Assembly: GCA_029907715.1 (NCBI GenBank)
Contig: JARYLI010000004.1
Span: 1 to 64,000, forward strand
Direction: 5' to 3'
Origin: Methanothrix sp.
Lineage (GTDB): Archaea; Halobacteriota; Methanosarcinia; Methanotrichales; Methanotrichaceae
Length of the DNA: 64,000 bases
The position numbers and the translations under genes are program-made. Under the pieces are notes generated by a model that was given only the letters and a program-made list of their open reading frames with translations, searched no databases and was not told the origin of the DNA. Shown here in pieces: positions 21,954 through 43,642 of this stretch. How positions within the stretch are numbered: position 1 is the stretch's first letter; each line of letters opens with the position of its first letter.

Positions 21954-22070
21954 GCATTGGTCCTGCGGTCCAGGACTGGCTCGAGAGCAACTGGCGGGAG
22001 ATCTTCTCAAGTGGTATAATGCCTGAGCCAGAGCCGGGATGCCCGGGATAAGAAATCAGGAGGCGCAAAG

Positions 22071-22199
22071 ATGGACAGCTGGAGATACGACTCTGAAAAG
22101 GGATGGATACGACCCAAATCTGAGACACCAAATATAGAAAAGAAATCGAATGCTGGCGGTTCTAAGAAGAGACAGAAAGAAGCTGGTAAGAAACGCTAG
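22071..22199 (+). CDS. 42-residue Lys/Arg-rich protein
   Basis: ATG 22071 with a strong AGGAGGCG site. MDSWRYDSEKGWIRPKSE opens, and the end is very basic (KKSNAGGSKKRQKEAGKKR). It ends 22 bases before the tail-fibre gene. Perhaps DNA-binding or a cleaved peptide; unknown. Confidence 0.5.
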   Translation: MDSWRYDSEKGWIRPKSETPNIEKKSNAGGSKKRQKEAGKKR

Positions 22200-22221
22200 A
22201 ACTGAATAGAGGCGAGTGCGG

Positions 22222-24087
22222 ATGACTGATATCAAGTATCTGTCGCCACGGACCAATCAATGCATTCTTCCGACGCACATTGAAGTGCTCTCGAGAGCTC
22301 TTCGTGGCGTAGGGGTGATCAGCGGCAATGCTATCTTCTCCACTGATCCGCCCAGCATGGCAGTAGTTGTTTCGGCAGGAACCATCCGGATTGGTCCGGA
22401 CGTTCTCGATGTATCTGAGCAGACAGTCAATATATCGCCCTCAGACGAGACGCTGTACCGCATCGATGTGATATACAGGGACACCTCTGGAAATGCACAG
22501 GTTCTCACTGGTGTGCCGGCCGAAATTATAAATCCTAATCAGCTGCCCAGCTGGACAGGCTACATTTCGCCATCGCCTCCTGAAGAAATTCCCGACGGTG
22601 TAATACTCGGGGTTGTATTTGTACCGGCAGAGACAGAAACAATTCAGGCATCGTATATATGGGAGTTTGCAGCGGGCGTTGAGGACCCGGTGCTTGTGGG
22701 CGACATCGTAACGTCTGTGGGCTCCCCTGGAGACAACTCGCATGTACCCTCTGAAGCTGCAGTACGTACACTTGCAGACACGAAGCTCAATTTATCTGAT
22801 ATAGTCACTACGCTCGGCAATCCCGGGAGCAATTCCAAGGTCCCCTCGGAAAAAGCAGTGCGTGATGTATTCAATTTGCTCGGTGTTACAAACGGGAATA
22901 ATCATGATCACTATGGTGGAGACGGTGCTCAGATAAGCCATAGTACGCTATCGAACCTCACGGCAGATGATCATACTCAGTACCTCAACACCACGCGTCA
23001 CGACACAACCGCTCGACATGGCTCGTCGGTGGTCGATCATGGCTCGATAGGCGGTCTCGGTGACGATGATCATACTCAGTATCTCAACACCACGCGTCAC
23101 GATACAACATCGAGACACACACCAGGTACCGTTGTGCCGGTAGTGACAAGCGTTGGTAGTCCTGGTAGTGACAGCAACATTCCTTCAGAGAAGGCCGTGA
23201 GAACTGCTGTCAACGATATGACAAACCTCGCCACACAGATGCACGCTCTGACATCTAAAGCAACACCTGTCGACGCTGACGAGACGTTCCTCATTGATTC
23301 AGCGGCATCCTATGGTCCGAAACGGCTCACATGGTCCAATATCAAAGCGACTCTTAAGAGCTATTTTGATTCGCTCTACGCGCCGAGCTCAAAAGGTGTA
23401 ACAAATGGGGACCTTCATGACCATGCTGGTGGAGACGGTGCTCAGATAAGCCATAGTACGCTATCGAACCTCACGGCAGATGATCATACTCAGTACCTCA
23501 ACACCACGCGTCACGACACAACCGCTCGACATGGCTCGTCGGTGGTCGATCATGGCTCGATAGGCGGTCTCGGTGACGATGATCATACTCAGTATCTCAA
23601 CACCACGCGTCACGATACAACATCGAGACACACACCAGGTACCGTTGTGCCGGTAGTGACAAGCGTTGGTAGTCCTGGTAGTGACAGCAACATCCCGTCT
23701 GAAAAGGCGGTCAGGGCTGCGATAAATGCGATCAACGTATCACGGGCTATAAATGTCCAGTTCGAGAATGGTGGATATGTTCTGGAAGCAAACCAGGTTA
23801 TATGGGTGCAGCTACCGAACGCAGCTACCACCATAACAGGATTGCAGATGGTTGCAGATACGACAGGGAGTGTCGTGGTGAACGTGAAATATGCCACGTA
23901 CAGCAGCTATCCCACGACATATGACCAGTGTGGATCCGCAAAACCGACCCTGTCCAGCGCGCAGAAGTACTCCACTGATTGTAGTAGCTGGACCAGAAAG
24001 ACGTTTTCCGCCGGTGATTGGGTCGTGTTTATCATCGAGTCGTGCTCGACCATAACCAGGCTCAATATATCGCTCAGCGTAGTGTAG
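22222..24087 (+). CDS. tail fibre / receptor-binding protein with internal duplication
   Basis: 621 residues from ATG 22222 (AGAGGCGA upstream). The N-terminal third is beta-type; then come repeats of DDHTQYLNTTRHDTT, the HxQY motif common in collar and fibre shafts of phages, and VTSVGSPGSDSNIPSEKAVR. A stretch of 89 residues (about 232-320 and 403-491) occurs twice and is identical at the DNA level. The C-terminal 120 residues (NVSRAINVQFENGGYVLEA onward) are unique and probably form the tip. It would bind the host surface. Confidence 0.7.
   Translation: MTDIKYLSPRTNQCILPTHIEVLSRALRGVGVISGNAIFSTDPPSMAVVVSAGTIRIGPDVLDVSEQTVNISPSDETLYRIDVIYRDTSGNAQVLTGVPAEIINPNQLPSWTGYISPSPPEEIPDGVILGVVFVPAETETIQASYIWEFAAGVEDPVLVGDIVTSVGSPGDNSHVPSEAAVRTLADTKLNLSDIVTTLGNPGSNSKVPSEKAVRDVFNLLGVTNGNNHDHYGGDGAQISHSTLSNLTADDHTQYLNTTRHDTTARHGSSVVDHGSIGGLGDDDHTQYLNTTRHDTTSRHTPGTVVPVVTSVGSPGSDSNIPSEKAVRTAVNDMTNLATQMHALTSKATPVDADETFLIDSAASYGPKRLTWSNIKATLKSYFDSLYAPSSKGVTNGDLHDHAGGDGAQISHSTLSNLTADDHTQYLNTTRHDTTARHGSSVVDHGSIGGLGDDDHTQYLNTTRHDTTSRHTPGTVVPVVTSVGSPGSDSNIPSEKAVRAAINAINVSRAINVQFENGGYVLEANQVIWVQLPNAATTITGLQMVADTTGSVVVNVKYATYSSYPTTYDQCGSAKPTLSSAQKYSTDCSSWTRKTFSAGDWVVFIIESCSTITRLNISLSVV
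22914..23180 (+). repeat. 267-bp perfect direct repeat, copy 1
   Basis: Identical base by base to 23427-23693, in frame (89 codons), inside the tail-fibre gene. The spacer is 246 bp. Confidence 0.95.
23427..23693 (+). repeat. 267-bp perfect direct repeat, copy 2
   Basis: Second copy, 513 bp after the first. Perfect identity at synonymous sites shows recent duplication or gene conversion. Confidence 0.95.
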
Positions 24088-25083
24088 GTGGTAACAGTGG
24101 CAACAATGGAAATTCTGCCGAACTATACAGTACAGGGGCAGCTACCATCAACCGGCACACCTAACCACACACAGATCATTGATTCCTCGGATTCGACATA
24201 TGTACACGTTAGGACGGATCAATCTGGAACAGATATATACAGGATGAATGCATTCTGTCCGGCTCTAACGATTAACAGCGTGTCTGTAAAGATTAGAATA
24301 AAGAATACACGAAGTATAGGCGCGGATGTTGGCACGATCGCTTTGCAGGCTCGTGAAGTCAACGGTTCGTACTCGGCGGTGCTTTCTCAGACGATTTCCA
24401 CGCCCAACGGTAACATAAACACGCTCACATATACAATGACAACATGCCCGCTGACCGGTACTAGCTGGCGTCCGGAAGACATACTGAACTGCTGTGAACG
24501 TATATCATTAACATTGACAAATCCAGGCGATTACCACACATATGTGTATCGGGTATGGGTGGAGGTCGATTACGATAGTACTTCGCTTTGTGATTATGAT
24601 GTTCTTGTGCCAATTGCAGATTATCAGGGTGGGAGTGGAACTGATTACCAGAAAGTGGATGATGCGATGTGGGCACGAGATGGGGATACATTTTGGGGCC
24701 CGTCGTCGTCAAAAGATGTCTTTTTCACGATAACACCATTTAACAGGAAGTGCTACATCGAGAGAGTATCGGCGATTTGGAACCTTTTCTATTCAGGGTC
24801 GATAGGTAGTCCGTCTTCCACTGGTCTGAAGATCCTGCAATCCGGAACTGCGTACATCGGTGCGACATTTTTCACGTCTGGATATTATAATAGGAGGTTC
24901 TCGTATCGGATATTTGATACAAATCCCTATACAGGTGCGAAATGGAAGCCTCCAGATTTACTGCAAACAAAAATTGGGGCATATTTTTATAAAAGTGCAT
25001 ATGGTGGTTTTAACAGCGATGTCATGTATGTGATCGTATACTATCGCAAACGGTATCCGCAGAGCAAAGCGTGCGTGGTATGA
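24088..25083 (+). CDS. fibre/baseplate protein, 3' end frameshifted by a 4-bp duplication
   Basis: 331 residues, GTG start directly after the fibre gene (GTG 24097 or ATG 24106 possible). Beta-rich with DSSDSTYVHVRTDQSG and, near the end, VMYVIVYYRKRYPQSK. There the 8-bp tandem GCGTGCGT (25069-25076) occurs. Removing one GCGT lets the reading continue as AWYDITNLLAGVYTLDGGLR and on to a stop at 25198, about 42 residues more. So the present stop (25081-25083) looks secondary. The protein probably sits at a fibre or baseplate tip. Confidence 0.55.
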   Translation: MVTVATMEILPNYTVQGQLPSTGTPNHTQIIDSSDSTYVHVRTDQSGTDIYRMNAFCPALTINSVSVKIRIKNTRSIGADVGTIALQAREVNGSYSAVLSQTISTPNGNINTLTYTMTTCPLTGTSWRPEDILNCCERISLTLTNPGDYHTYVYRVWVEVDYDSTSLCDYDVLVPIADYQGGSGTDYQKVDDAMWARDGDTFWGPSSSKDVFFTITPFNRKCYIERVSAIWNLFYSGSIGSPSSTGLKILQSGTAYIGATFFTSGYYNRRFSYRIFDTNPYTGAKWKPPDLLQTKIGAYFYKSAYGGFNSDVMYVIVYYRKRYPQSKACVV

Positions 25084-25208
25084 TATCACTAATCTTCTGG
25101 CTGGGGTATACACTCTAGATGGCGGTCTGCGATTGACGCAGATGTATGCTCTCGTTTCGTACTTCCCCAATGTCGGCAACCAGGCGATAATTCTGTGAGG
25201 GCATCTGC

Positions 25209-25568
25209 ATGGATTTTTCGCAACAACTCCTAAACGCCGCCGGAGCACTCAAGCAGGCGATCGAGGAGTGCATTGACTCAGGCGTACCGCCGCCGAACGC
25301 ACCATCGACCATTCGGAGAAAAGGTCATGGTCTGACGCTGCGGGATACATGGACATACCGGAACAGTATCGAGATCCGCGTCTCCGACAACGTCGCAGAA
25401 ATAGGAGTGTTCAATCCGGAGGTAGCTGAATACGTGTTCTACAACGAACACGGCACGTCGAAGATTCCTGCTCGGCCCGTGTTCGGTCCGGTATTCGACG
25501 GGCTTGGGCAGCGTATCCTGGACGAGCTTGAAGATAATCTGGCAGATGAGATTCTAGCCAGCCTTTAA
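25209..25568 (+). CDS. HK97 gp10-like tail-completion protein
   Basis: 119 residues. NEHGTSKIPARPVFGPVFDG near the C-terminus is the signature of HK97 gp10-type head-tail or tail completion proteins, preceded by RDTWTYRNSIEIRVSD. ATG 25209 after the frameshifted fibre gene. It helps join tail to head. Confidence 0.7.
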   Translation: MDFSQQLLNAAGALKQAIEECIDSGVPPPNAPSTIRRKGHGLTLRDTWTYRNSIEIRVSDNVAEIGVFNPEVAEYVFYNEHGTSKIPARPVFGPVFDGLGQRILDELEDNLADEILASL

Positions 25569-25629
25569 AGTATCTTCTTCGGCCGGTTGAGATTGTCGCG
25601 TTCCAATTCTTTTCCATTAAGGTGAGAAT

Positions 25630-26226
25630 ATGGCAGCAATTGTGCAAATTGTGGGATATTATGGAGTAGAGCCCGGCACGAAGGTGCCGTTAACTGTGCA
25701 GCGGTACAACACTGCAATACCCAGCCAGCGCGATCCTGGTCTGGAGTACCCATGCAACATTCCGCCCAGCGGACAGCTGTACCGCAGCTGCTGGATGTAT
25801 ACGGGCGCAGAAGTTGTCGGGGGATCGTACAGTCAGCTATCGAACTGGAGGTATTTCACATCGGGCACTATAAAACAGGACTGGCAGCTGGGAAGCGGGT
25901 GCGTGCAGGTCGCACTGCGTGATTCCGGCGACCATGGCTGTCCTGTAGCGAACTATGCAGCGCCCACCGGTATATCTGGACTGACTGGATACGATATCAA
26001 GGACTCGCAGTACGGCCACCCGTATTACAAAGACCAGACGACACCCTGTGCAGACGCAGACCAGTTCACCAGCACAAATCCACTCCTGTTCGACAGCACA
26101 GTGATCACGCCGTCGTCATCATCCAAGGTGACAAAGCTCGTTGTCACGCAGCTGGTGATAGCACCAGACACGGCATTCGGGGAGAAACCAGAGCTGACGA
26201 TTGGAATAAGATGGACAGAAATTTAG
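25630..26226 (+). CDS. hypothetical virion protein
   Basis: 198 residues, AGGTGAGAA before the ATG. Aromatic- and Ser-rich beta sequence with several Cys and short QLYRSCWMYTGAEVVGG. Looks like a virion surface protein. Its end overlaps no neighbour, but the next gene begins 13 bases on with an unusual start. Confidence 0.5.
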   Translation: MAAIVQIVGYYGVEPGTKVPLTVQRYNTAIPSQRDPGLEYPCNIPPSGQLYRSCWMYTGAEVVGGSYSQLSNWRYFTSGTIKQDWQLGSGCVQVALRDSGDHGCPVANYAAPTGISGLTGYDIKDSQYGHPYYKDQTTPCADADQFTSTNPLLFDSTVITPSSSSKVTKLVVTQLVIAPDTAFGEKPELTIGIRWTEI

Positions 26227-26239
26227 CTGGGGGGATTAC

Positions 26240-26644
26240 ATACCACAGATCGGCCCGAATTTATGGCGAGCTCCCACCGCATATATCTGGTGGCGGAAGT
26301 ACAAAGACGGGCACGAAGAGTTCGAGATAGATCCACGCACCGGTGAAAGCACCCTTTGGGGTGAGACGACTCCTCTCGACATTGTCTGCGCAGGATGGGT
26401 GCCGGTCGATGAGAATCTGGCGAAGCTGCTGAATGCTCGCGGTGAGTTTGCGGTACCTACACGCTCGCCCGCGATTCTGGTGCATCTCCAGCATGGAGAG
26501 GAGCTGGTGATGTTCAAGGACGTGACGGTCATCATGCAGGGCGACCAGGCCTGGGAGGACGTGGTGTATAACATAGGCATTAAAGACAAGTTCATGATCA
26601 AGTTCAATAGCCGCGAGCTAATAGCGTACCATTCGAGCTCGTAA
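26240..26644 (+). CDS. structural protein with apparent ATA start
   Basis: 134 residues if begun at ATA 26240, which is five bases after a run of six G (GCTGGGGGGATTAC). In this frame no ATG, GTG or TTG exists before GTG 26399. The 53 codons before 26399 read like protein (IPQIGPNLWRAPTAYIWWRK, then DPRTGESTLWGETTPL). A start only at 26399 would lose that part. The C-terminus (HGEELVMFKDVTVIM) is beta-type. Function unknown; place suggests a baseplate or neck protein. Confidence 0.5.
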   Translation: MPQIGPNLWRAPTAYIWWRKYKDGHEEFEIDPRTGESTLWGETTPLDIVCAGWVPVDENLAKLLNARGEFAVPTRSPAILVHLQHGEELVMFKDVTVIMQGDQAWEDVVYNIGIKDKFMIKFNSRELIAYHSSS

Positions 26645-26655
26645 AGAAGTTCTCT

Positions 26656-26708
26656 GACAGAGAGTGACAGGGTACAAGCTCCGGCCTGAAGGCCGGAGAG
26701 GAAGTCGC
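26656..26708 (+). repeat. dispersed hairpin repeat C (short form), IS200/IS605-end-like
   Basis: GACAGAGAGTGACAGGGTAC, hairpin CTCCGGCCTGAAGGCCGGAG, GAGGAAGTCGC. Its GGAGAGGA is the only ribosome-binding site for the gene starting at 26709, so the repeat supplies that gene's translation signal. Confidence 0.75.
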
Positions 26709-27791
26709 ATGTCGTTTTACGGCCGCACGCTTTATGGCAAAGACCACTATGCTGGTGTTTCATACAGTCACATTGTTAAGGAGCGAAGCGTCCGCATCCG
26801 AGCGAAGATAATACACGAACTACCCAGCGAGCCGCTGCCAGTATTCGATACGATCGTCCGCGGTTTGGCCACGTACTTCGACTTCCTGCAGCAGGGAATT
26901 CAAGCGTTTTCGCTGTTCAACAAGATCGAGTATGCTACAGGGAAACGTGACAGCATTCTGCCATCGCTGGACGATGTGTGGGGTGTATTATATAATCTAC
27001 CCCGACTCGCGGGCGAATCTGATTTTGAATACCGTAAACGTCTCCAGACGTACATCAAAGCGCTGATAGGTAGCGGTACGATACCGGCATGTCAGGAAGT
27101 CATTGATATACTCCTCGACATGCCGGGCGTGACAATCATCAAATCGGTCTATCCGGCAAGAGCTGTAATTACGTTCCGAGATGCAAACGCAATACGTGTA
27201 GCGCGTGATAGAATCAAACTGCTGAACAATACTCTGCCGGGTCTTTTTGCGGCTGGAGTTGAGTATGATCTGAAGCTAACACTTGTGGATAGCTACATCA
27301 CCGCATATGTGCGAGGAGATGCCACAGCAGAGTATGCTATCAGAGCAGCTATTAGGTCAGACGCTGAATGCTCAACAGCCATATCAGCTACTGTGGCGTG
27401 GCAAAGAACAGAAGCGTCAGGGATCTTAGTTGCATTCTGCACTCAAAGAGATGCAACATCATATATTCAATCAACAATTCGTGCTGAACGTGACCTTTCC
27501 GCGAGACTGTATGCTGCAATCCAGAGCCAGCCGATTGCAGAATTATCATTATGTGCTACAATTCGATCTGAGCGGCTTGCTCTATGCGATCTCATTTCAG
27601 CAATACGCGCTGATTGCGAGCTGAATGCAAGCGTGAGTGCTGCAATATCTAGAACGTTCGAGATGACTGGTAGAATCTCTGCAAGAGTCACCATCTCTTC
27701 TGAGCTGAACAGCAGCATTAAGGCGGCAGTGAGAAGCCGCAGAGAAGCTAATGCTGGAATACGTGCCAGGATTGCCAGGAGGATAGAGTAG
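26709..27791 (+). CDS. tail protein with C-terminal 14-residue repeats
   Basis: 360 residues from ATG 26709. Residues about 35-180 resemble a baseplate-type domain (TIVRGLATYFDFLQQGIQAF, DVWGVLYNLPRLAGESDFEY). From about 190 the rest is about twelve tandem 14-residue units of the type IRAAIRSDAECSTA, LCATIRSERLALCD, IKAAVRSRREANAG. The pattern is [ILV]-x-[AS]-x-[ILV]-R-x-x-R-x-x-[AS]-x-x. The same kind of repeats is found in the gene at 28868. They may form a beta-solenoid or trimeric stalk. Confidence 0.55.
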   Translation: MSFYGRTLYGKDHYAGVSYSHIVKERSVRIRAKIIHELPSEPLPVFDTIVRGLATYFDFLQQGIQAFSLFNKIEYATGKRDSILPSLDDVWGVLYNLPRLAGESDFEYRKRLQTYIKALIGSGTIPACQEVIDILLDMPGVTIIKSVYPARAVITFRDANAIRVARDRIKLLNNTLPGLFAAGVEYDLKLTLVDSYITAYVRGDATAEYAIRAAIRSDAECSTAISATVAWQRTEASGILVAFCTQRDATSYIQSTIRAERDLSARLYAAIQSQPIAELSLCATIRSERLALCDLISAIRADCELNASVSAAISRTFEMTGRISARVTISSELNSSIKAAVRSRREANAGIRARIARRIE

Positions 27792-28871
27792 ATGCCTGAA
27801 ATCGAAGAGGTCACGCTCGTCGTCGGGTCTGGCGATCGAGTGTTCTCAAGAGGCGTATCTGATGCGGAAGAGACCTCAACCGGCGGATGGTGGAGCATGT
27901 CATCTCCGATACCAGGAGCAGTGATACTGTCTAGCATAGAGATATATCACAGAGTATGGGTTGTATTAACCCGCACCGAATCCGGGCAGTATCAGCTCTT
28001 CCGGACCGTTGATTTGCAGAACTACGAGCTTGTCCACACGCACGATGCCGAGATATATCAGATACACTTCCTGGACGATGGTCAGGCAATTTTTGCAGCT
28101 GAAGATGGAATATATGCAACTATAGATGCTGGATGGCACTGGTCGCGTGTCGGTGTAAACCATCTTAATGGTGTGAAGAAAATTTCCACTGTTCGGATGA
28201 GTGAAGTCTGGTGGAGACTCTTCACATATGCCGCGGACAAACGTGTTTATCGATGCGATATTGAACTTCAGCCCTTCAGCAGATCACTCGGCTGGGAGGA
28301 GACGTTTGGAGCATCTGGGATCTGCGATTATCCGTACAGCACAATGGCTGCTAAATCTCAACCAAGTGGGTCGCCATTGGGATGGGAGGAATCCTTTGGA
28401 GCGAGCGGATTTGATGATTACCCAGTCAAACTTCTGTCCATCCCCGTCGATTGGGAGTCCATCTTTAACGCATCATCATATCGTGACAAATGGTACCCTG
28501 CAATAGCATGCAATCCGCTGGCTATTTTCGTGGGTTGTGGAAGCGAACTCTGGCGTTCTACAGACTGTGGTGATTCGTGGCACAGGATTGCAGTGGTGAA
28601 TGGCGCTATCAAGGAGCTGATCGTCTCGGATCAGTCGAGTCACGCAGAGCTGATGATGGTCGTCGAAACTTCAAACGGCTTATCGACTATTTTGCGGTCG
28701 GTTGATCTGGGCGATTCGTTCACCACCGAAGCTACCAGAATCGAGCCAGTTGTCTCGGTACAATCGGTAATACCAACCTGCACAAGCGATCTGGAGACAT
28801 CTTATGTGGTGTTGGGGCAGCGCACCGAATCTGATGTTCCACAGTACAAAATCATTGAGGGCGGCGTATGA
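27792..28871 (+). CDS. BNR/beta-propeller-like virion protein
   Basis: 359 residues. Asp-box-like segments (IDAGWHWSRVGVNHL; STDCGDSWHRIAVVNG; VDLGDSFTTEATR) fit a BNR/sialidase-type beta-propeller, found in phage fibre or baseplate proteins that bind or cleave surface sugars. In the middle LGWEETFGASG and LGWEESFGASG form a duplicated segment. It lies between the two 14-residue-repeat proteins, so the three probably act together at the tail tip. Confidence 0.6.
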   Translation: MPEIEEVTLVVGSGDRVFSRGVSDAEETSTGGWWSMSSPIPGAVILSSIEIYHRVWVVLTRTESGQYQLFRTVDLQNYELVHTHDAEIYQIHFLDDGQAIFAAEDGIYATIDAGWHWSRVGVNHLNGVKKISTVRMSEVWWRLFTYAADKRVYRCDIELQPFSRSLGWEETFGASGICDYPYSTMAAKSQPSGSPLGWEESFGASGFDDYPVKLLSIPVDWESIFNASSYRDKWYPAIACNPLAIFVGCGSELWRSTDCGDSWHRIAVVNGAIKELIVSDQSSHAELMMVVETSNGLSTILRSVDLGDSFTTEATRIEPVVSVQSVIPTCTSDLETSYVVLGQRTESDVPQYKIIEGGV

Positions 28872-29923
28872 CGCTCTGGTGGCCGAATGCGTTCCCAGAT
28901 AAACCGTGGAGAACCTGGTTCTGGGCGAGAAGGCCTGGCGAAGATGATGCAGGACTGAAGTTCCAAGAGTGGCCTCCGGGATACTACTGGTTTTACAAGA
29001 TTCCTCCTGAGGCAGGTCACAAACAACAGCTCGCATTCAAATCCCCAGAGGATCGACGATGCTATGCTTGGAAGAGCTTCAATTGCAACATAAAAGCGAA
29101 TGTAATCTACATCATCACGTATCCAGGTGACACACCCAACTGGGGTAACAGCACACTGGTAAATATTGGGCCGCCATGCGGCAACTGGCGTTCCAACATG
29201 TATAAAGTGATTCCGCTGGAAAAGAATATTGAGCAATCGTCACACATTACAGCAGCTGTAAGACAGACTCGTGTGGCAACATCCAAAATCACTGCGGTTG
29301 TACATGAAGCACCGTGGGTACTCAGAAGTCAGTTCTCACAGATCACCTCGTTTATAAAGGGTGTGAGGGAGAAAAAAGCTCGTTTGCTTGCATATGTGGT
29401 CATACCACCAACTGCCATCAGAAATCAGACTGCTGGCATAAAGACTGCCATACGCACAGATCAGGGATCCCGATCACGTATACGTTCTGCGATAGCTAAA
29501 ACGTTTATAATGAACACGAATGTGATCACGGCAGTTCGTACAAGTCGTGTTGTATCGTCTAAAACAATTACAGCGATTCAAACAAACCGAGACAGGTCCA
29601 CAAATATACGCTCCGCAGTGCGCGTTGTAAGAGAAGTTGAGTGCACGTTAGTTTCCGCAATTGGAAAGGATTTCGATCTGGAGTCAAAAGTAACTGCAAC
29701 CGTCCAAGGCAATCCAATAAAAGCAGTCCGATACAGAGGGGCGCTGAAGGGCGAAGCGCAGACGACATCCCAAATAACAGCATTCGTGGTTCTCAGCCGC
29801 GCTGAGAAGATCATGCTCGAGATGGAGAACCTGTATCCACAGGAGTTCGATATGAGAAGCGTCCCCAATTGGGCATCGGAGTTCAAAGACTGGCGAAAAT
29901 CTAAACTCCAGGAGATCCTATGA
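28868..29923 (+). CDS. tail protein with 14-residue repeats (partner of 26709)
   Basis: 351 residues, ATGA overlap with the propeller gene. Residues 1-115 are Trp-rich (LWWPNAFPDKPWRTWFWARR). From about 120 to 320 tandem ~14-residue units occur: IRSAIAKTFIMNTN, IRSAVRVVREVECT, LVSAIGKDFDLESK. They match the repeats in the gene at 26709. The C-terminus (MRSVPNWASEFKDWR) is unique. Probably a fibre or stalk. Confidence 0.55.
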   Translation: MTLWWPNAFPDKPWRTWFWARRPGEDDAGLKFQEWPPGYYWFYKIPPEAGHKQQLAFKSPEDRRCYAWKSFNCNIKANVIYIITYPGDTPNWGNSTLVNIGPPCGNWRSNMYKVIPLEKNIEQSSHITAAVRQTRVATSKITAVVHEAPWVLRSQFSQITSFIKGVREKKARLLAYVVIPPTAIRNQTAGIKTAIRTDQGSRSRIRSAIAKTFIMNTNVITAVRTSRVVSSKTITAIQTNRDRSTNIRSAVRVVREVECTLVSAIGKDFDLESKVTATVQGNPIKAVRYRGALKGEAQTTSQITAFVVLSRAEKIMLEMENLYPQEFDMRSVPNWASEFKDWRKSKLQEIL

Positions 29924-30549
29924 TACCAATATCTCCAGCTCGTAAGAGAAAAATTCTGCAATGGTTGCCGTCGTGTCTGGGCGGGCAGAGCTATCCTGTC
30001 ATAGAGACAGACGATATTGTGCCGAACCTCGAAGCCCCTGCCATCACTTTCTACTTCTCATCAGCAGGCACGCCATCACTCTATTCCTGGGCACCATTAA
30101 GGAGAGTCCCGAATCAAGATGGCACAGTTGATGATGTCTGGGGCGAATACCATCGTGCAACAATGAATGTCGTTCTGCGAGCGTACAGTAAAGCCGAGCT
30201 GGAGACGATGTGGTACGAGTTTGTGAAGCAATGCCTTCAGACGCGCCGCAATATGGTCATCGCTCTGGATGGCGTCAGGTTCCTTGAGATCCTGAACTCG
30301 ATACTGTTACCTCCTGAGAGGTTAGATGATGGTCGTACACTTTACTGGGCGCAGGTCGACCTCCTGTTTGAGTATGAGGTCAGCGGTATACCCGATGAGG
30401 ATTACATCAAGCGGGTGTACACCCACTTACAATCCCAGACGCCTCTCGATGATGGCGAGCTGCATGACTCACGTCCACTGGAACTCGTCAGAGAGGTGCT
30501 CGACGGAGAGCTGACAGTCATACTGAAGGCGCACATTGCTGCGCCTTAA
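29920..30549 (+). CDS. tail-terminator-like protein
   Basis: 209 residues, overlapping the previous stop. RATMNVVLRAYSKAELETMW and DDGRTLYWAQVDLLFEYEVS resemble tail-terminator or head-tail closure proteins placed before sheath genes. The C-terminal 45 residues are acidic. Assignment by position and general look. Confidence 0.5.
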   Translation: MIPISPARKRKILQWLPSCLGGQSYPVIETDDIVPNLEAPAITFYFSSAGTPSLYSWAPLRRVPNQDGTVDDVWGEYHRATMNVVLRAYSKAELETMWYEFVKQCLQTRRNMVIALDGVRFLEILNSILLPPERLDDGRTLYWAQVDLLFEYEVSGIPDEDYIKRVYTHLQSQTPLDDGELHDSRPLELVREVLDGELTVILKAHIAAP

Positions 30550-30582
30550 GTTAAGTTACGTTTTTAGGGAGAGGTGAACGGT

Positions 30583-30723
30583 TTGAAAACTGTGAAAATG
30601 AGGGTAGCAGACGCGCTACAGGCGGGTCTGATATCGAGAGAGAAGTATCAGAAGCTCGTAAAGGAGTTCGGGCTGGATACTGCGAGATCTATGAGAATTG
30701 ATGTTGAAGTTCCAGAGGTTTAG
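30583..30723 (+). CDS. 46-residue protein before the sheath gene
   Basis: TTG start at 30583 with GGAGAGGTG nine bases upstream. KTVKMRVADALQAGLISREK, then YQKLVKEFGLDTARSMRIDV. Helical and basic. It ends three bases before the sheath ATG, so it is translationally linked. Similar small genes precede many sheath genes. Role unknown. Confidence 0.5.
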   Translation: MKTVKMRVADALQAGLISREKYQKLVKEFGLDTARSMRIDVEVPEV

Positions 30724-30726
30724 GGC

Positions 30727-32376
30727 ATGTCTGTAATAACGTTAGGCAACCAGTACGACTTCCTGCGGCATGTCGTAACGCTGGAGTCAATCGGGACTGT
30801 TCCCGTGATAGTCGGGCGTGGAGTTGTTGTCGGGATAGGCACCTCCAGCCGCGGTCCTGCAATGGAACCGTACGGTATCGCGGGTAACACGCCCAGCCTG
30901 ATCAGGCGCACGTTTGGTGACGGGCCACTCCGAGAGGGGCTTGAACTTGCAGCTGCTCAGGGTTGCGCGATCGTGTATGGTGTCCGCGTGCTGGGCGAAG
31001 GATACAAGACAGCTGAACTGGAAGTGGTCGATGGGCAAGATAATCCTTGCGGGAAATTCGTCGCGAGAGGGCCAGGTACATGGGGCAACATCCCGACAAT
31101 TACCATCACATACGGCGACCTGGATGGCACAAAGAAGGAGATCTTCAACGGCAACGGTAGCAACGTGACGACACCCTATGCGCTGATGTACGATAACTTG
31201 GTTGAATCGCCGCTGAATCATGTGAAGGTGGACGGGGCCTCCAAGACAATCATCTACTCCGGCACACCCGATCCTGGTGAAGTTCTGCTCGATAAAACCA
31301 GCGGCACGCTGACCTTTGCGACTGGGGAGTGGCCAGACACCAACGAGCAGGTCGAGGTACGGTACAAGTACAAGAGCCGGAAGGTCACGATCAGAGAGGA
31401 AGGCAAGCTGCCGGTATCGTACAACAACCTCATGTCGCTGACGATGATGGCAGCAAAGATGAAGAACGATCCTGTATGCACCTTCGAGATCGATGTCGGT
31501 GCCACGAGGCTTCCGAAACCGATTGGCGCAACGAACATGGAAGGCGGATCGGATGGAGCTCCAATAACGATTGATGACTGGGAGGCCGCGTTTAACAGCG
31601 TTCTCGAGAAGCTGCCTGATACGGTCATACCAAGTGCGGTGTTCACGACTGCTTACGAAGCAACCGAGGGGCAGTGGGATATCGTAGCCCTCCTGGATCA
31701 GTTCCTTTGGCAGATGGGCAACCTCAAGAAACCATGCCAGGGATTTGTTACGCTGCCTGCCGATGCGACCGCACAGCAGATCGTCGACTTCAAGGAAGGA
31801 TACACGAACCTTTTCCTGACGCTGATATCGAACGGTTATGATAACACTGAGAAGGATCTGGCAGGCGCTAGGGCCGGCCAGGAAGCATCACTCGGCCTCG
31901 GAGTCTCGCCCGCCACAGCAAGCAACAGCCTGAAGGGAGTCAACGGGCTGCTATTCCAGTGGAACGAGCCCGAGAGGGAGCTCCTCACGTACAATGGCGT
32001 AGAGGTGCTCGTTAAAGGTACAGGCGTACATCCGTACGTGGGTGTCTCGACCGATCCAGATGATTCATTCCGGCGCACGGTGGACGTCCGGACGATATGT
32101 CAGGTGATCGTGTGGGTTGATCAGATCGTGAAGTACTTCCTGAACGAGAAACGCACTCGGACAAATCTTGCACGAATGAAAACGTCCATAGACGTGCTGC
32201 TCGACCGGCTCTGCAGAGCATCAGTCCTCGATACGTACGATCTGATGGTCACGCCGAATGCGTCCGATCACAACGCTGTTGATATCACGCTCAAGATCCA
32301 GCCGGTCGGACATATCGAGCGCGTGTACACCTGGATCGGTGTGGGATACTACAACACCGAGGCAATTGCTGAGTGA
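30727..32376 (+). CDS. tail sheath protein
   Basis: 549 residues. GRGVVVGIGTSSRGPAMEPY at the N-terminus, then ELAAAQGCAIVYGVRVLGEG. The C-terminus (SFRRTVDVRTICQVIVWVDQ, RTRTNLARMKTSIDVLLDRL, then ITLKIQPVGHIERVYTWIG) has the strands by which sheath subunits link. These show a contractile tail, so the virus is of myovirus type. The tube gene follows after 11 bases. Confidence 0.85.
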   Translation: MSVITLGNQYDFLRHVVTLESIGTVPVIVGRGVVVGIGTSSRGPAMEPYGIAGNTPSLIRRTFGDGPLREGLELAAAQGCAIVYGVRVLGEGYKTAELEVVDGQDNPCGKFVARGPGTWGNIPTITITYGDLDGTKKEIFNGNGSNVTTPYALMYDNLVESPLNHVKVDGASKTIIYSGTPDPGEVLLDKTSGTLTFATGEWPDTNEQVEVRYKYKSRKVTIREEGKLPVSYNNLMSLTMMAAKMKNDPVCTFEIDVGATRLPKPIGATNMEGGSDGAPITIDDWEAAFNSVLEKLPDTVIPSAVFTTAYEATEGQWDIVALLDQFLWQMGNLKKPCQGFVTLPADATAQQIVDFKEGYTNLFLTLISNGYDNTEKDLAGARAGQEASLGLGVSPATASNSLKGVNGLLFQWNEPERELLTYNGVEVLVKGTGVHPYVGVSTDPDDSFRRTVDVRTICQVIVWVDQIVKYFLNEKRTRTNLARMKTSIDVLLDRLCRASVLDTYDLMVTPNASDHNAVDITLKIQPVGHIERVYTWIGVGYYNTEAIAE

Positions 32377-32387
32377 GGTGATAAATA

Positions 32388-32978
32388 ATGGCAACTGTCA
32401 GAAGTGCATACGCTTCGAAGGGCCGGCACCCGTACTCGGATTTCATGACGAAGGAAGGCACGGTCCTTCACAATATTTCCGGGATGGACATACTGATTGA
32501 TATCGCAGGAATGTACTTCCCACTTCGTACAATCCGATATGACAAGAACATAAACGTCTCAGATGAGCACGGAACTGGCTCTCATGATCCATATGCTCTG
32601 CCTGCACACGAGCAGACATACTCTGGTTCATTTACATATGCATCGTTCCTCGTGAACGGCACAAACGTAATGACCAAGTCTGAAGTGCTGCTTCTCAAAA
32701 GAACGCTGCTAAACCAGATGGACGAAGGAACACCGTACTACTTTGACATCTACATTCTTGAGGTCCAGGGCAGCCGAACACCAGAGGTGACTCAGGCGGG
32801 ATTCACTACGAGGAGTGCTCAGGAGCTTGCAGAAAGCATAGTTTCCAAAGCAGTAGATGTTGGCCACATCGAGGCGCTGATTGACTGTAAGGTTACCAAG
32901 TTTGGCAGAGAGGTACCGGAGAAGGCATCCGTGGTATCATCGGTAGATTTCAAGTTCTGCCGCATGCTACCAAGATAA
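32388..32978 (+). CDS. tail tube protein
   Basis: 196 residues, following the sheath gene. NISGMDILIDIAGMYFPLRT, then QTYSGSFTYASFLVNGTNVM and the final KASVVSSVDFKFCRML. This is the beta-barrel layout of tail tube proteins (T4 gp19, P2 FII type). It forms the inner tube driven through the cell envelope. Confidence 0.75.
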   Translation: MATVRSAYASKGRHPYSDFMTKEGTVLHNISGMDILIDIAGMYFPLRTIRYDKNINVSDEHGTGSHDPYALPAHEQTYSGSFTYASFLVNGTNVMTKSEVLLLKRTLLNQMDEGTPYYFDIYILEVQGSRTPEVTQAGFTTRSAQELAESIVSKAVDVGHIEALIDCKVTKFGREVPEKASVVSSVDFKFCRMLPR

Positions 32979-32996
32979 CACAACATGGAGTGGGGT

Positions 32997-33125
32997 GATA
33001 GAGATCTTCAGGCCGGAGTAAGCCCGAATCACCCTCGGACTGAGGGGTAGAGCCTGTGGAGATACTGGATGAAACAGATCAATGAGACAGGAAGCTTCGG
33101 CCTTTCAGGCCGGAGAGGAGGTCAC
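32997..33125 (+). repeat. dispersed hairpin repeat D (long form, 5' part shortened)
   Basis: Like B, but the first ~22 bases are lost (GATAGAGATCTTCAGGCCGG joins directly to hairpin 1). The remainder is intact, with GAGCCTGTGGAGATACTGG, hairpin 2 (CTTCGGCCTTTCAGGCCGGAG region) and GAGGAGGTCAC. Confidence 0.75.
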
Positions 33126-33153
33126 CTTCGCTCTTGCTCTTTTTAGGAGGGAT

Positions 33154-33195
33154 ATGCACTGTCTTCTAACTATCTTACTCGAAAGAAGACTCTGA
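33154..33195 (+). CDS. 13-codon leader ORF before the tail-assembly chaperone
   Basis: ATG with AGGAGGGAT upstream; encodes MHCLLTILLERRL and ends at a TGA that shares bases with the ATG of the chaperone gene (TGATG). It can couple translation of the chaperone to the ribosome site. Not a protein of its own. Confidence 0.4.
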   Translation: MHCLLTILLERRL

Positions 33196-33662
33196 TGGGT
33201 GTCAGGTATGAGGAAGAGGTAAAGCTCGATCAGTACGGTGGAGCTATCGTGAGGGTTCATGCAATCTCAGATGTGACTCTGGCACGAATTGAAAACCGTG
33301 TCGGATACACACTTGAGGAGGCGCTATCTGAAATCGCATCAATGAACCTTTCCGAAAGCGATATCTCGAATATCCAGGCCGGAAAGGTGTCCTCTGAAAT
33401 TGCTGCAAAAGCGAGCAGAGCTTTCGATCCACGATTCAAGCTCTTCCTTGCGGAGGTTTGCAAAGCCGGAATAATACCTGATCCAGACTGCAGGTGTGGT
33501 GGGAAGGGCTGTGAGGACTGTGATGTGTCTGCGATGGTTGAAGAGCTCAGAGGATACTCACTGCTACAGATAGGTATGGCTATAATCGGTGCGTCCACTG
33601 CGAGATGGTCGGACGTGGAGGATTTTTTCTCAGCGAAGAAGGCGCAATCTGGAGCAGGATAG
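33195..33662 (+). CDS. tail-assembly chaperone (gpG-like)
   Basis: 155 residues between tube and tape measure. Helical, with KLFLAEVCKAGIIPDPDC and a Cys cluster (CRCGGKGCEDC), ending LLQIGMAIIGASTARWSDVE. The place and the overlapping second frame make it the short chaperone (G). Near the end lies the slippery run TTTTTTC (33623-33629); ribosomes slipping by -1 would make a long product (see next). Confidence 0.7.
   Translation: MGVRYEEEVKLDQYGGAIVRVHAISDVTLARIENRVGYTLEEALSEIASMNLSESDISNIQAGKVSSEIAAKASRAFDPRFKLFLAEVCKAGIIPDPDCRCGGKGCEDCDVSAMVEELRGYSLLQIGMAIIGASTARWSDVEDFFSAKKAQSGAG
33623..33629 (+). promoter_or_regulatory. -1 programmed ribosomal frameshift site
   Basis: T-TTT-TTC in the chaperone frame (GAT TTT TTC), an ideal X-XXY-YYZ slippery heptamer. 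It lies 33 bases before the stop of the first frame and inside the open part of the -1 frame. Confidence 0.75.
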
Positions 33663-33949
33663 CCTGTACCGGAAGCGGTCTGGGCCCAGTCGAATTGCTG
33701 ACCCCAGTACAGCTCATGTTTCTCGCGCTCGCAAGCATGGAGGATGCACAGATTAAAGGGGGTGGTGGTCTGGTCGAGCGCAGCGAAATTTCGAGCACAG
33801 ATGACGCAATGAGCGTTCAGGATTATTTCAAGCTCAAGCGCGAGCACGAGGTTCTTGCACAGCAGATACGTGAAAAACAGGCGCCTTTGAGAGAGCTGCT
33901 GGAGTCTCGAGTGCGACAGATGGTACTTGAGGAGATGAAGTACCGGTAG
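33629..33949 (+). CDS. tail-assembly chaperone frameshift extension (gpGT-like)
   Basis: The -1 frame is open from 33605 to 33949. After slippage it adds about 106 residues (LSEEGAIWSRIACTGSGLGP onwards, then ELLTPVQLMFLALASMEDAQ, and helices) to the first ~145 residues of the chaperone, a product of about 251 residues. Used alone (GTG 33605), it would overlap the first gene oddly. In tailed phages the equivalent G/GT pair is made in a set ratio and loads the tape measure. Coordinates give only the extension. Confidence 0.7.
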   Translation, partial: LSEEGAIWSRIACTGSGLGPVELLTPVQLMFLALASMEDAQIKGGGGLVERSEISSTDDAMSVQDYFKLKREHEVLAQQIREKQAPLRELLESRVRQMVLEEMKYR

Positions 33950-33957
33950 GAGATAAT

Positions 33958-34104
33958 ATGCCACTTATAGAGGGTTACTCAAGACGTGCGATAGCACACA
34001 ACATCGCTGAGGAGATTCGAGCTGGAAAACCGCGCGATCAGGCGATCGCGATTGCAATGGACATTGCGCGACGTGCCCGTGCTAAAGCCAGAGCCAAGAG
34101 ATAG
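33958..34104 (+). CDS. 48-residue basic protein (DUF6496-like)
   Basis: ATG 33958 with TAGGAGATA upstream. MPLIEGYSRRAIAHNIAEEI, then RAGKPRDQAIAIAMDIARRA and a basic tail. It resembles small DUF6496-type proteins (xxGKSxxAIxxNIxxExxxGKPxxQAxAIAxxxAR) of phages. Its TAG stop is also the start of the hairpin repeat E. Confidence 0.6.
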   Translation: MPLIEGYSRRAIAHNIAEEIRAGKPRDQAIAIAMDIARRARAKARAKR

Positions 34105-34151
34105 AGAGTAACAAGGCACAAACTCTGGCCAGATGTCCGGAGAGGAAGTCA
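34100..34151 (+). repeat. dispersed hairpin repeat E (short form), IS200/IS605-end-like
   Basis: GATAGAGAGTAACAAGGCAC, hairpin CTCTGGCC-AGAT-GTCCGGAG, GAGGAAGTCA. The most diverged copy. It is followed by a 149-bp gap with TTTAAA-type boxes before the tape-measure gene. Confidence 0.65.
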
Positions 34152-34300
34152 TTTTTATTTGCGGTTCTTTTAAAAACGATTTAAAGGCATTTTTCGCGTC
34201 CGGATGGAAATTAGGCACGCCCAAGCTCAGTCTGTGGACACAAAAGGCCGGACACAAAGCTCCGGACTTTGGACAGAATATGAAATCATCTCACTAAAAC

Positions 34301-37300
34301 ATGGTCGAGCGAGAAGTTACAATCCGGATCAATCTCATAGACGAGATTGGCGACCGGCTGCTGGAACTGAAAAAGCAGCGTGATGCTCTGGCACGGGCAT
34401 CATCGGTCACGCTCAAAGCGCGAGCAGACGATATTGAACGAGTCAAAGAAACGTCCAGACAGGTCCGCAGAGAAGCTGCATTGGCTACCAGAGATCTTAC
34501 GGACCTCTGTAACGCTGTATCCAGCAGAGCAGTTCCTCAGGTGGAACAGTACCAGCGCCTGCTGGGTAGTGTGCTGCAGGTCGCTCGCAGTATTGGTCCA
34601 AGCATAGCTACAGCACTTGTCGGCGTGTCAAATGAGTTCAAGCGGCAGCGCGATCTCGCTCAGTTCTGGGGAACAACTGGGTATCTCCATCTCGGACTGT
34701 ACTCATTCAAGAATGCGCTTCAGGGGTTCCTGGCGACAGGTGGCGCGAGTCTCACGAAATGGCTCAAGGATGTATCATACAGCCTTGCCTCGCTCAGGAC
34801 GACGCTCGCTGCTAGCGGCGCTGCTATGCTCGGATTTGCGACCGCTGTCGGTCTGAGCTCAAAGCACGCTCAAAACTACATTCAGTCGACATTGAGCACT
34901 GGCCTGATGGCCAGAAAGCTTACCGACAGAAAAGCTGCAGAAGCATGGATCCAGCAGGCTCAGAAGGTCGACTGGTCGGCTGGACGTGAGTCCAGGATGG
35001 CGGTGTTCCAGACAGTCCTGAGCAAGGCCCCATATCTCGGCCAGTCTCAGGCACAGGAGTTCACTGAAGCTATTGAGAAGTACTTCTTTGCCAACCGCGA
35101 GATGCTGGCAAAGAAAGGTATCACGAGTGCAGAGCAGCTGGCGTCTGAGATATCTGCCCCGGTTCTGACCGGCGAGGCAGCTACAATATTCGAGGACATA
35201 TTCGGGCTCGGGTTTTCTCGAATGCATGCTCAGGCCAGGTTAGCACGGCTCGCCTCCGAGGCAAAGGAGATCGATATCGAAAAAGCCGTAGCGATGCGTC
35301 CGGACGAAGTTCTGCAGAAGAGACTTGCTGCGACGTCTGCAGCCATCGGCGATACAGTAATTCCAGTACTGAATCAGGTTCTCGGGGCTTTTCTGGCGAT
35401 TTCAGACGCGATTGGCAAAATCCCCGGTCTCGGTGCAGTTATCGGGTGGGCAACCGTGCTGTCCGGCGCTGCTGCTATCGGGCTGGTCCTGGTATCAGTG
35501 CTCGGTTCGATGATTCAGAACCTCCAGGTAGTTACGAAGCTGGTTCATTTAGACACAGTTCGCCGCGCGATACACACCGCCGCGATATACGCACAATCTG
35601 CCGCGATCAAAGCAGTAACCGCTGCACAGTGGTTGTTCAATGCAGCAATGACTGCCAATCCATTGGGTATAGTGATCATAGCAGTCGCTGGACTGGTATT
35701 GCTGCTGATCGCACTTGAGAAGCGGTTCCAGCTGGTGTCGAAGGCATGGAATGCATTCAAGCAGACTGGATTTGGCGGCACGATAGTTGCATCAGTGGAA
35801 AATATAATGGAAAAGTTTGATCAGATGCGCAAAACGCTCACGTCGTTGATCAGCAAAGGTGATTGGAAGGGACTTGTAAAGTTCGGCATTGATACAGCTG
35901 TCAAACTGTCACCAGTGGCAGCTGGTTTGAATGCCGTCAAATCGTTGTCTAAATTCCTGTCCGACCGAATTAAAGGGCTGGATCGGAAGAGCCTGGTCAA
36001 GCTCAGCATTGATACAGCTGTTAAGACATCTCCGGTTGCATCAATACTGAATACATTCACATCGTTCCGCAGGTCGATATCCGATAGGATCAAAAACATC
36101 AGCTGGAAAGAGTCAGTCAGGCTTGGTATTGAGCAGTGGATCAAGCCGGAAGCATTCACCAAGGTGGAAGCATACATTACGCGGGTGTCCAGAGCATTCT
36201 TGACGCTTAAATCAACCCGCATCGGGGATACGTTTTTCTCGTTCATAACGAAAGCGCTCGATGTGTTCGATCATGCATACAAATCATTAACATCACTGAT
36301 CAGGAAGAGCGACTGGAAAGGCGTGATAAAGCTCGGGTTGGATGCTCTGATTGGAGCATCGCCTCTGGCGCTGATAGCAAAAGTCCTGATCGGGATCTAC
36401 GACTTCATAAGGAAGATCTGGATAAACACTGGAATTGTAAACAAGTGGATCTCATTGCTCACCGGACTGGTTCAAACTATCGTGGATTTCATACGACGGC
36501 TCTGGAGGACCATAACCGGTATATGGGACTGGCTGACTGGTAAGCTATGGGGTCTGTTCGAGTCTGTCGTTCAGCTGATACCTGGGGGGAAGAGGGCACT
36601 CGCATGGCTTGATTTCCAGCAAATACTTGACAGGTACGGTCTCAGATATGAGGAGAAGACTGGGAAGTACTACAACAAGGCTGGCGAGGAAGTTCCAGAG
36701 TCGTATGTTCCGGAAGCAGTCCGCGCAATGCAGCAGAAATGGTCGGAGCAGCCCACGTTCACAGAGGACCTGAAAAACATATGGAACTCGCTGGTTGATG
36801 CGCTATACACAAAGTTCAAACCGCTTTTTGACGCGATTGTTACTGCAATCGGGTTCATTGGAGGTTTTCTTGAAGCGTTATCTGGTGGAAAGTGGATCGC
36901 TAGTTCCGTTGTGAATGTCTGGAACGAAATTAAAGGGCTTCCACACGTGTATGCCGAAACTGCAGGCAGCATGGGTGGATATAACTTACCTCCTGAGGGA
37001 CCTGTACCTGTAACCAGTTCAGTCACTACCGCTCCAATCATTACAGGATCTGACAGTAACGATTACTCATGGAATCCTAAGACGAAACGATGGGACATGA
37101 TGATCCCCGGCGATGCAGGTTTGATGCCGATCGAGGTCGACCAGTCGAAAGTACCGGAGGACATTCTTGCCCGGACTCCGAAGATGGCGATAGGCGGATC
37201 GATCATATCCGGCGGTCTGGTCATGCTGCATCGCGGTGAAGAGGTTGCTCCAGCGAGAGTTGTTTCAGGCGGCAAGACCGTGCTGGAGCGGTTCACAGAG

Positions 37301-37507
37301 CGCGCTGTATTATCGCCTGCCGCCGAACCGATACACATCAGCGCACCGGTAACAGTGCATGTCGAGGTGGGCAACGTTTCCAGCGAGCTGGATCTGGACC
37401 GGCTGGCACATCGGCTTGGCACAGAAGCAGCAGATAAACTATTGTTTGCACTCCGGAACAAGCTTGACAATCTCTACAACCGGAATATTGCATATATGAG
37501 GGGGTGA
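34301..37507 (+). CDS. tail tape measure protein
   Basis: 1068 residues, the longest gene. The N-terminal ~120 residues are helical/coiled coil (LLELKKQRDALARASSVTLK). Hydrophobic segments lie about 355-400 and 440-460 (WATVLSGAAAIGLVLVSVLG; LGIVIIAVAGLVLLLIALE). Between about 490 and 690 a 50-60-residue unit recurs (LTSLISKGDWKGLVKFGID; VKLSIDTAVKTSPVA; LTSLIRKSDWKGVIKLGLD). The C-terminus has GGSIISGGLVMLHRGEEVAP. At about 0.15 nm per residue (known for tape measures) the tail would be near 160 nm. Confidence 0.85.
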   Translation: MVEREVTIRINLIDEIGDRLLELKKQRDALARASSVTLKARADDIERVKETSRQVRREAALATRDLTDLCNAVSSRAVPQVEQYQRLLGSVLQVARSIGPSIATALVGVSNEFKRQRDLAQFWGTTGYLHLGLYSFKNALQGFLATGGASLTKWLKDVSYSLASLRTTLAASGAAMLGFATAVGLSSKHAQNYIQSTLSTGLMARKLTDRKAAEAWIQQAQKVDWSAGRESRMAVFQTVLSKAPYLGQSQAQEFTEAIEKYFFANREMLAKKGITSAEQLASEISAPVLTGEAATIFEDIFGLGFSRMHAQARLARLASEAKEIDIEKAVAMRPDEVLQKRLAATSAAIGDTVIPVLNQVLGAFLAISDAIGKIPGLGAVIGWATVLSGAAAIGLVLVSVLGSMIQNLQVVTKLVHLDTVRRAIHTAAIYAQSAAIKAVTAAQWLFNAAMTANPLGIVIIAVAGLVLLLIALEKRFQLVSKAWNAFKQTGFGGTIVASVENIMEKFDQMRKTLTSLISKGDWKGLVKFGIDTAVKLSPVAAGLNAVKSLSKFLSDRIKGLDRKSLVKLSIDTAVKTSPVASILNTFTSFRRSISDRIKNISWKESVRLGIEQWIKPEAFTKVEAYITRVSRAFLTLKSTRIGDTFFSFITKALDVFDHAYKSLTSLIRKSDWKGVIKLGLDALIGASPLALIAKVLIGIYDFIRKIWINTGIVNKWISLLTGLVQTIVDFIRRLWRTITGIWDWLTGKLWGLFESVVQLIPGGKRALAWLDFQQILDRYGLRYEEKTGKYYNKAGEEVPESYVPEAVRAMQQKWSEQPTFTEDLKNIWNSLVDALYTKFKPLFDAIVTAIGFIGGFLEALSGGKWIASSVVNVWNEIKGLPHVYAETAGSMGGYNLPPEGPVPVTSSVTTAPIITGSDSNDYSWNPKTKRWDMMIPGDAGLMPIEVDQSKVPEDILARTPKMAIGGSIISGGLVMLHRGEEVAPARVVSGGKTVLERFTERAVLSPAAEPIHISAPVTVHVEVGNVSSELDLDRLAHRLGTEAADKLLFALRNKLDNLYNRNIAYMRG

Positions 37508-42736: not shown

Positions 42737-43642
42737 CTACACCCCAAGCATCGGTATGTGCGCCAGGTAGCTGCGCTTGACGTCCTCAGGATCGATATGG
42801 TTGTAGATGTCGATCGCCTCGTTCATCGCGTCGCCTCGGAGCCACTTGATGTAGTCTCGAGGCATCCCTGAGCGGATTAAGTGCGTTGTAAACCAGTGGC
42901 GGCAGCAGTGAGGCGAGAAGTGATCCTCAGGGCGGTCGGACTTTGGATCGTGCAAGCCGACACGCTCCGCAGCCTTCGTGACAATGGTCTGAATTGACGA
43001 GATTCCCAGCCTCGTGCCGAACCGGTTCAGAAAGAGCGCTTTCTCCCTTCTACGCATTGGTCTCGAAGCTCGAACAGCAAGCCAACGTTTCAGTGCTCGA
43101 GCTGCTTCGTCGTCGAAGTAGACGATTCGATTAGAACGCTTAGCAGTCTCCTTCAGAAGTATCGAATTGTTATCTGTATTTACATCATCTACATCCAGAG
43201 CTGCCAGCTCGTTCACACGTATCCCTGTTTTGAGCAGGATCAATAGGATAGCACGATCTCGAGTATCGATCGTCGCTCTTACCATCCGAGCTGCGTCCTC
43301 GATTGAGATCAGTTTCCTGTGGTTCACCGGATCCTTGTATGTTTTAAGGTACCGCTTCTTGAGATTGTGCATGGGGTTCGATTCGATCTCGCCGATCTCT
43401 TCGAGATAGTCTATCCATACACCGATCCGCCCGAAAGTCTTCTTAATTGTGGTCGAGCGGAGTTTTTTGACGGATCGGAGATACCGGAGATAACGCACCA
43501 GGCTCTCTGAACTTTTGGGATCTCTGCTATCTTTCTCACTCCATCTCAGATAGGCCTTTACGTTGAACATAGTATCTCTGATGGTTGTAGGACTCATTCC
43601 TCGGAGTTCAAGATCCTGCTGAAAATCCTGGAGATCTATCAT
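42737..43642 (-). CDS. int: tyrosine integrase
   Basis: 301 residues from ATG 43642 (overlapping the stop of the upstream gene as ATGA; GGTGGGTGGG upstream). An N-terminal SAM-like domain (FQQDLELRGMSPTTIRDTM), then catalytic motifs: TGIRVNELAALDVDDV (first Arg), HCCRHWFTTHLIRSG (HxxR) and IDIYNHIDPEDV (Tyr). Tyrosine recombinases of this kind integrate and excise proviruses. It faces the late operon and stands at the right end of the provirus. Confidence 0.85.
   Translation of the reverse strand: MIDLQDFQQDLELRGMSPTTIRDTMFNVKAYLRWSEKDSRDPKSSESLVRYLRYLRSVKKLRSTTIKKTFGRIGVWIDYLEEIGEIESNPMHNLKKRYLKTYKDPVNHRKLISIEDAARMVRATIDTRDRAILLILLKTGIRVNELAALDVDDVNTDNNSILLKETAKRSNRIVYFDDEAARALKRWLAVRASRPMRRREKALFLNRFGTRLGISSIQTIVTKAAERVGLHDPKSDRPEDHFSPHCCRHWFTTHLIRSGMPRDYIKWLRGDAMNEAIDIYNHIDPEDVKRSYLAHIPMLGV

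Follow-up and report, generated by a model that had tools for sequence, protein, structure and literature searches.

Does the gene between the tail-tube and tape-measure genes of an archaeal provirus make one tail-assembly chaperone or two? We examined this for a 64,000-nucleotide stretch of Methanothrix sp. DNA (contig JARYLI010000004.1, positions 1 to 64,000; hereafter the window), which forms the opening 64 kb of a contig of 148.5 kb from an archaeal draft genome of 2.0 Mb. At this locus a zero-frame open reading frame (ORF), G, overlaps a second ORF, T, in the −1 frame, and the two are joined by the heptamer T_TTT_TTC. An earlier note, made from the sequence alone, had read the pair as a programmed −1 frameshift in the tail-assembly chaperones of an archaeal virus. 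Comparison across ten loci supports this reading: the heptamer is kept in all of them, T often lacks a start, and both frames are under selection. We therefore conclude with high confidence, on comparative sequence grounds, that the gene makes two tail-assembly chaperones, G and the fusion GT, by programmed −1 ribosomal frameshifting. The features of the junction are as follows.

33159..33662, + strand: G, the zero frame, putative tail-assembly chaperone; probable CTG start at 33159, stop at 33660-33662; based on the N-terminus alignment, the open frame, and weak chaperone profile and fold matches.
33623..33629, + strand: slippery heptamer T_TTT_TTC in zero-frame phase, the proposed site of a tandem tRNA-Phe slip; in phase and identical in 10/10 loci.
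33542..33949, + strand: the −1 open frame; the T part read after the slip would start at 33629 and comprise 106 aa; under purifying selection between the window and its relative G004.
33630..33662, + strand: the overlap past the heptamer, dual-coding as judged from the substitution pattern between the window and G004.

Direct reading of the sequence bore out the coordinates, phase, frame and product length given in the earlier note. From the ATG at 33195, which that note took as the start, the first ORF extends to 33662 (155 aa). The heptamer is read in the zero frame as the codons TTT (33624-33626) and TTC (33627-33629), and translation from the same ATG through a −1 slip yields a fusion of 251 residues, whose predicted tryptic peptide across the G/T junction is WSDVEDFFLSEEGAIWSR; the corresponding peptide of the G product would be WSDVEDFFSAK. 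Among 7,945 codon junctions in 21 structural genes of the window, an in-phase T_TTT_TTC occurs once, at the G/T site. When the overlap was reshuffled synonymously, 13% of trials produced T_TTT_TTC and 32% an X_XXY_YYZ heptamer of any kind. Given the chance rate of 13%, the heptamer would be no more than suggestive at a single locus; it is its conservation across ten loci that makes it convincing.

A protein search retrieved G004 (88% identity), a contig of 6,990 bases (G004:C116) from a genome assigned to the window's genus, and, from the window's own genome, C11 (32% identity), a further provirus. C11 (G000:C11, L022) is a distantly related contractile-tail provirus with the same frameshift layout. 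Direct searches of phages and IMG/VR with G alone, or with a three-row G/GT profile, found no relatives; profiles of the sheath and tube, which are more conserved than G, found further IMG/VR contigs. After removal of duplicates, both frames were readable in ten loci: the window, G004, C11, L041, L042, L043, L045, L047, L050 and L051. The nine relatives of the window thus comprise one same-genus contig, one same-genome provirus and seven IMG/VR contigs, reaching down to ~30% protein identity, with L050 and L051 near-identical to each other. In G068 a relative of G is present, but the contig stops short of the junction.

The earlier note had proposed alignment with related viruses as a check, and the overlap and heptamer turned out to be kept in all nine complete relatives. 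T_TTT_TTC stands in zero-frame phase at one shared column of the protein alignment in 10/10 loci, and the −1 ORF that follows encodes the same domain in every locus, with the motif EG ... LT..Q..F. Nowhere in the set did the two frames appear as separate, well-started genes lacking a slippery site, and many loci had no usable start for T. The constraint appears to act on nucleotides as well as residues, according to several counts that ignore shared ancestry and so serve as indications, not probabilities. Immediately ahead of the Phe pair the codon varies among GAT, AAT, GGT and AGT (Asp, Asn, Gly and Ser), yet it ends in T in all ten loci; such an invariant third base was seen in 3/86 alignment columns with at least three residues, the pre-heptamer column among them. 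The two heptamer codons were identical in 72/72 pairwise comparisons, versus 57% of same-residue pairs overall. In-phase T_TTT_TTC occurred 13 times in ~38,000 codon junctions of the ten loci, and 10 of these 13 were the G/T site.

Substitutions between the window and G004 tell which frames are read. G had a proportion of synonymous differences (pS) of 0.58 and a ratio of nonsynonymous to synonymous change (dN/dS) of 0.06; T, taken in the −1 frame, had a pS of 0.54 and a dN/dS of 0.10, while the other two frames of this region look non-coding. By these measures both frames are coding, and both G and T are under purifying selection. Within the overlap, past the heptamer, the zero frame carried no synonymous change at its 7.8 synonymous sites, against the pS of 0.58 upstream, and two nonsynonymous ones, while the −1 frame carried two synonymous and no nonsynonymous changes. 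As judged from this pattern, constraint past the heptamer falls on the −1 frame.

From the observed frames, heptamer, conservation and two-frame selection we infer the slip, which would proceed as follows. Most ribosomes would stay in the zero frame to 33662 and produce G. A minority, with tRNA-Phe in both the P and A sites on UUU-UUC (33624-33629), would slip back one base; both tRNAs would re-pair on UUU-UUU, and reading in the −1 frame from 33629 to 33949 would give GT. A tandem slip of two tRNA-Phe would be the simplest reading, because both re-pair fully on UUU afterwards.

The T run invites another explanation, in which the polymerase slips on the six T and adds one U, so that part of the mRNA carries G and T in one frame. 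The T run is present in all loci, and such slippage would be plausible at the longer A runs found in the proviruses G129 and G147. However, six T are short for polymerase slippage, and the run in 10/10 loci is exactly six T followed by C, phased as a tandem tRNA slip requires. Moreover, the methanogen viruses Blf4 and psiM2 have a short canonical A_AAA_AAC and a canonical A_AAA_AAG, respectively, at the same place. We consider polymerase slippage very unlikely here.

T might instead be a separate protein with its own start and no fusion. The only candidate start upstream of the heptamer in the window is the following.

33605..33607, + strand: ATG, the only possible upstream start of the −1 ORF; non-conserved (GTG in G004) and probably unused.

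This −1-frame ATG precedes the heptamer by 18 nt, and its counterpart is absent in C11, L041, L042, L043, L050 and L051. None of these six loci has an ATG, GTG or TTG upstream of the heptamer in the −1 frame: in C11 a −1-frame TGA abuts the heptamer on its upstream side, and in the other five a −1-frame stop lies 3-24 nt before it, with no such start codon between. The six loci have their next start 93-111 nt past the heptamer, inside the conserved part or beyond it. Independent initiation would also leave the invariant heptamer unexplained; we rejected the start at 33605 on both counts and regard a separate T as highly improbable. T would thus have no start of its own and be made only as a fusion, as six of the ten loci indicate; the window retains its non-conserved ATG. 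That the two frames reflect an assembly error or a decayed gene, as a draft genome with a homopolymer at the junction might suggest, is next to inconceivable and was in practice refuted by the comparison, since ten loci drawn from several different assemblies and samples share the layout, and both G and T show purifying selection.

For G itself, the start is probably the CTG at 33159 rather than the ATG at 33195, which would make G ~167 aa and the fusion 263 aa. In the N-terminus alignment this CTG lines up with TTG in G004 and ATG in most relatives, the stretch SSNYLTRKKTL at the N-terminus is conserved in relatives, and GGAGG precedes the CTG (window 33147-33195).

Several results weigh against a frameshifting chaperone gene. 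No conserved hairpin follows the heptamer at a distance of 5-9 nt in the ten loci, by single-sequence folds and shuffles in which pseudoknots were not modelled; the stem after the heptamer had a z of −3.2 in the window, −1.2 in G004 and near 0 or positive in the other loci. Likewise, no conserved Shine-Dalgarno-like element was found at the usual spacing in the ten loci. Matches to PHROG chaperone families were weak and came from relatives (E 0.012-0.3), the structure model of G was of moderate confidence only (mean predicted local distance difference test score 70), and its PDB fold matches were non-significant, the HK97 chaperone 2ob9 ranking first at E 2.1. A Pfam search gave no match. On the other side, the named viral fold matches of the model were mostly tail-assembly chaperones (best named E 0.02), its fold neighbours include a 'pre-tape measure frameshift protein G', and the G protein of provirus G129, from the same class as the host, matched a PHROG chaperone at E 2.9e-5. 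The fold evidence by itself would not be sufficient for a chaperone identity. We infer the G/GT chaperone role by transfer from position, the weak profile matches and the moderate-confidence model.

Two upstream motifs were considered as −1 stimulators and set aside: GGAGG directly before the T run in the window and G004 is too close and is not kept in the other loci, and AGGAG 11 nt upstream of the heptamer in C11 is not conserved.

A close known counterpart is phage lambda, whose G and GT cover the tape measure, with T binding to the tail-tube protein (PMC5009743). The family rule for G/GT frameshifts goes back to Xu, Hendrix and Duda 2004, as cited in the review PMC5009743. Like lambda, the provirus carries two overlapping ORFs flanked by tail tube and tape measure, a −1 slip predicted at an X_XXY_YYZ site near the end of G, and T only as a C-terminal extension. 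By analogy, a coat of many G and few GT would form on the tape-measure protein, with the T domain recruiting tail-tube subunits. Unlike lambda, this is an archaeal contractile-tail provirus, its U_UUU_UUC would be decoded by tRNA-Phe alone, and its G does not clearly resemble any named chaperone family in sequence. Since neither G nor GT remains in the mature virion of lambda (PMC5009743), mass spectrometry of virions would be a weak test of the fusion.

Among archaeal viruses, −1 G/GT frameshifting has been proposed for HVTV-1 and HCTV-1, -2 and -5, as summarized in reviews (PMC5009743, PMC8211752), and Hardycor1 has a predicted −1 frameshift in its tail chaperone pair at G_GGA_AAT (PMC7911831). 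These share with the provirus a predicted −1 frameshift in an archaeal tailed-virus chaperone pair, but they are siphoviruses of halophile hosts, whereas ours is a myovirus-type provirus of a methanogen with conservation across ten loci. In HSTV-2 a +1 frameshift was proposed (PMC5009743), and the HF1 group has a suggested +1 site (PMC7230728); these archaeal myoviruses likewise encode their chaperone pair in two frames, the direction being +1 there and −1 here. Proven −1 recoding in archaea is limited to very few cases (PMC8211752). One of them, fucA1 of Saccharolobus, was established experimentally at an A-run slippery site (PMC8211752, PMC8037382); there, too, the archaeal ribosome shifts by −1, as proposed here, but the gene encodes a cellular enzyme. 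This kind of frameshift is therefore already known, being familiar from bacterial phages, and the provirus G/GT adds to the lambda-type chaperones predicted in haloviruses. The earlier note's suggestion of a good native archaeal example holds in that a site with the same seven letters in ten loci makes a strong native candidate for −1 recoding; it is not the first, having been preceded by the proposals for HVTV-1, HCTV-1, -2, -5 and Hardycor1.

Judged from sequence, the same −1 layout is present with other slippery runs in psiM2, Blf4, vir525 and three proviruses (G006, G129, G147). In psiM2 (L063 13209-13948), ORF19 contains A_AAA_AAG in phase at 13712; a −1 TGA immediately precedes it, and the extension in the −1 frame comprises 78 codons. 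Blf4 (L066 13007-13620) has an in-phase A_AAA_AAC at 13354 and a −1 ORF to 13620. In two related viruses, vir525 (L067, Methanosarcinales) and provirus G006 (L053), the T domain follows in the −1 frame at GAT TTT TCA/TCG, a T5 variant that would need a slip of the P-site tRNA only. G129 and G147, both from the same class as the host, have the −1 layout with nine or ten A; the A-rich junction of psiM100 is less regular. Drs3 (L064 4209-4794) has its T domain in +1 relative to G, close to AAA TTT CCT, which suggests +1 recoding. Like the provirus, psiM2, Blf4 and Drs3, which are cultured methanogen viruses, have G before the tape measure and the T domain in another frame; they differ in being siphoviruses with other slippery runs, and Drs3 would need a +1 shift.

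We tentatively suggest, with low confidence, that the tailed viruses infecting methanogens have a single chaperone-frameshift scheme in common, in which the recoding signal was repeatedly swapped (U_UUU_UUC, U_UUU_UCR with a one-tRNA slip, A_AAA_AAG, A_AAA_AAC, long A runs, +1). The all-Phe site of the Methanothrix viruses might then work without any stimulatory RNA, its efficiency depending on the modified tRNA-Phe of the host. No G/T fusion is annotated in the records deposited for psiM2 and Blf4, an omission that bears on annotation. Titles and abstracts found on psiM2 and frameshifting did not mention its site, although full texts may hold one, and no report of the psiM2, Blf4 or Drs3 sites was met in the literature examined. 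As psiM2 and Blf4 come from cultured hosts, their parallel sites would allow frameshifting in archaea to be measured in the laboratory.

The provirus, of contractile-tail type, occupies the left two thirds of the window, with genes for RecT, terminase, a Mu-type portal, an XkdF-like protease, sheath, tape measure and baseplate J, and a tyrosine integrase at 42737-43651; host genes, e.g. an amidase and gatB, follow from ~45 kb on. The closest relative outside the source genome lies on the Methanothrix sp. contig NZ_JAOAKP010000072.1, of the same genus, and the virus is therefore that of a Methanothrix-type methanogen, in line with the archaeal virus named in the earlier note. The structural neighbours of G and T are as follows.

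30727..32376, + strand: tail sheath of a contractile-tail virus; weak PHROG tail sheath match (E 0.002) and Pfam Phage_sheath_1C at E 0.006, below the cut-off.
32388..32978, + strand: tail tube, assigned by position; conserved in relatives by alignment and gene order.
34301..37507, + strand: tape-measure protein, the downstream partner of G/GT; PHROG tape-measure matches down to E 3e-10.

The order sheath, tube, G, T, tape measure is shared by the window and its relatives, the tube being named by position, and vir525 has the equivalent order next to an annotated sheath. The T ORF ends just ahead of the tape measure, except in L045, where an inserted gene comes next; in that virus a 336-aa repetitive gene (10616-11626, AYREAHKEE-type repeats) stands after T, where the tape measure is expected. 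A 48-aa ORF (window 33958-34104) between T and the tape measure is also present in G004.

The large terminase subunit is split into an ATPase ORF (10195-10899) and a nuclease ORF (10896-11588) that overlap by TTGA without a slippery site; this may be a true split gene, a coupled start or a lesion, and tblastn of the fetched relative loci gave no match for a terminase relative. The same assembly also holds an array of clustered regularly interspaced short palindromic repeats (CRISPR; G000:C18, L023) with 22 repeats, whose spacer targets fall within window positions 15905-35741. Spacers 1-6 and 9-11 match the provirus exactly and spacer 7 with two mismatches, 9/10 of them on one strand; a 5'-CCN motif accompanies nearly all targets, and spacer 1 hits 33202-33238 inside G. 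The matches would indicate self-targeting or a mixed population, in a pattern that looks like primed acquisition.
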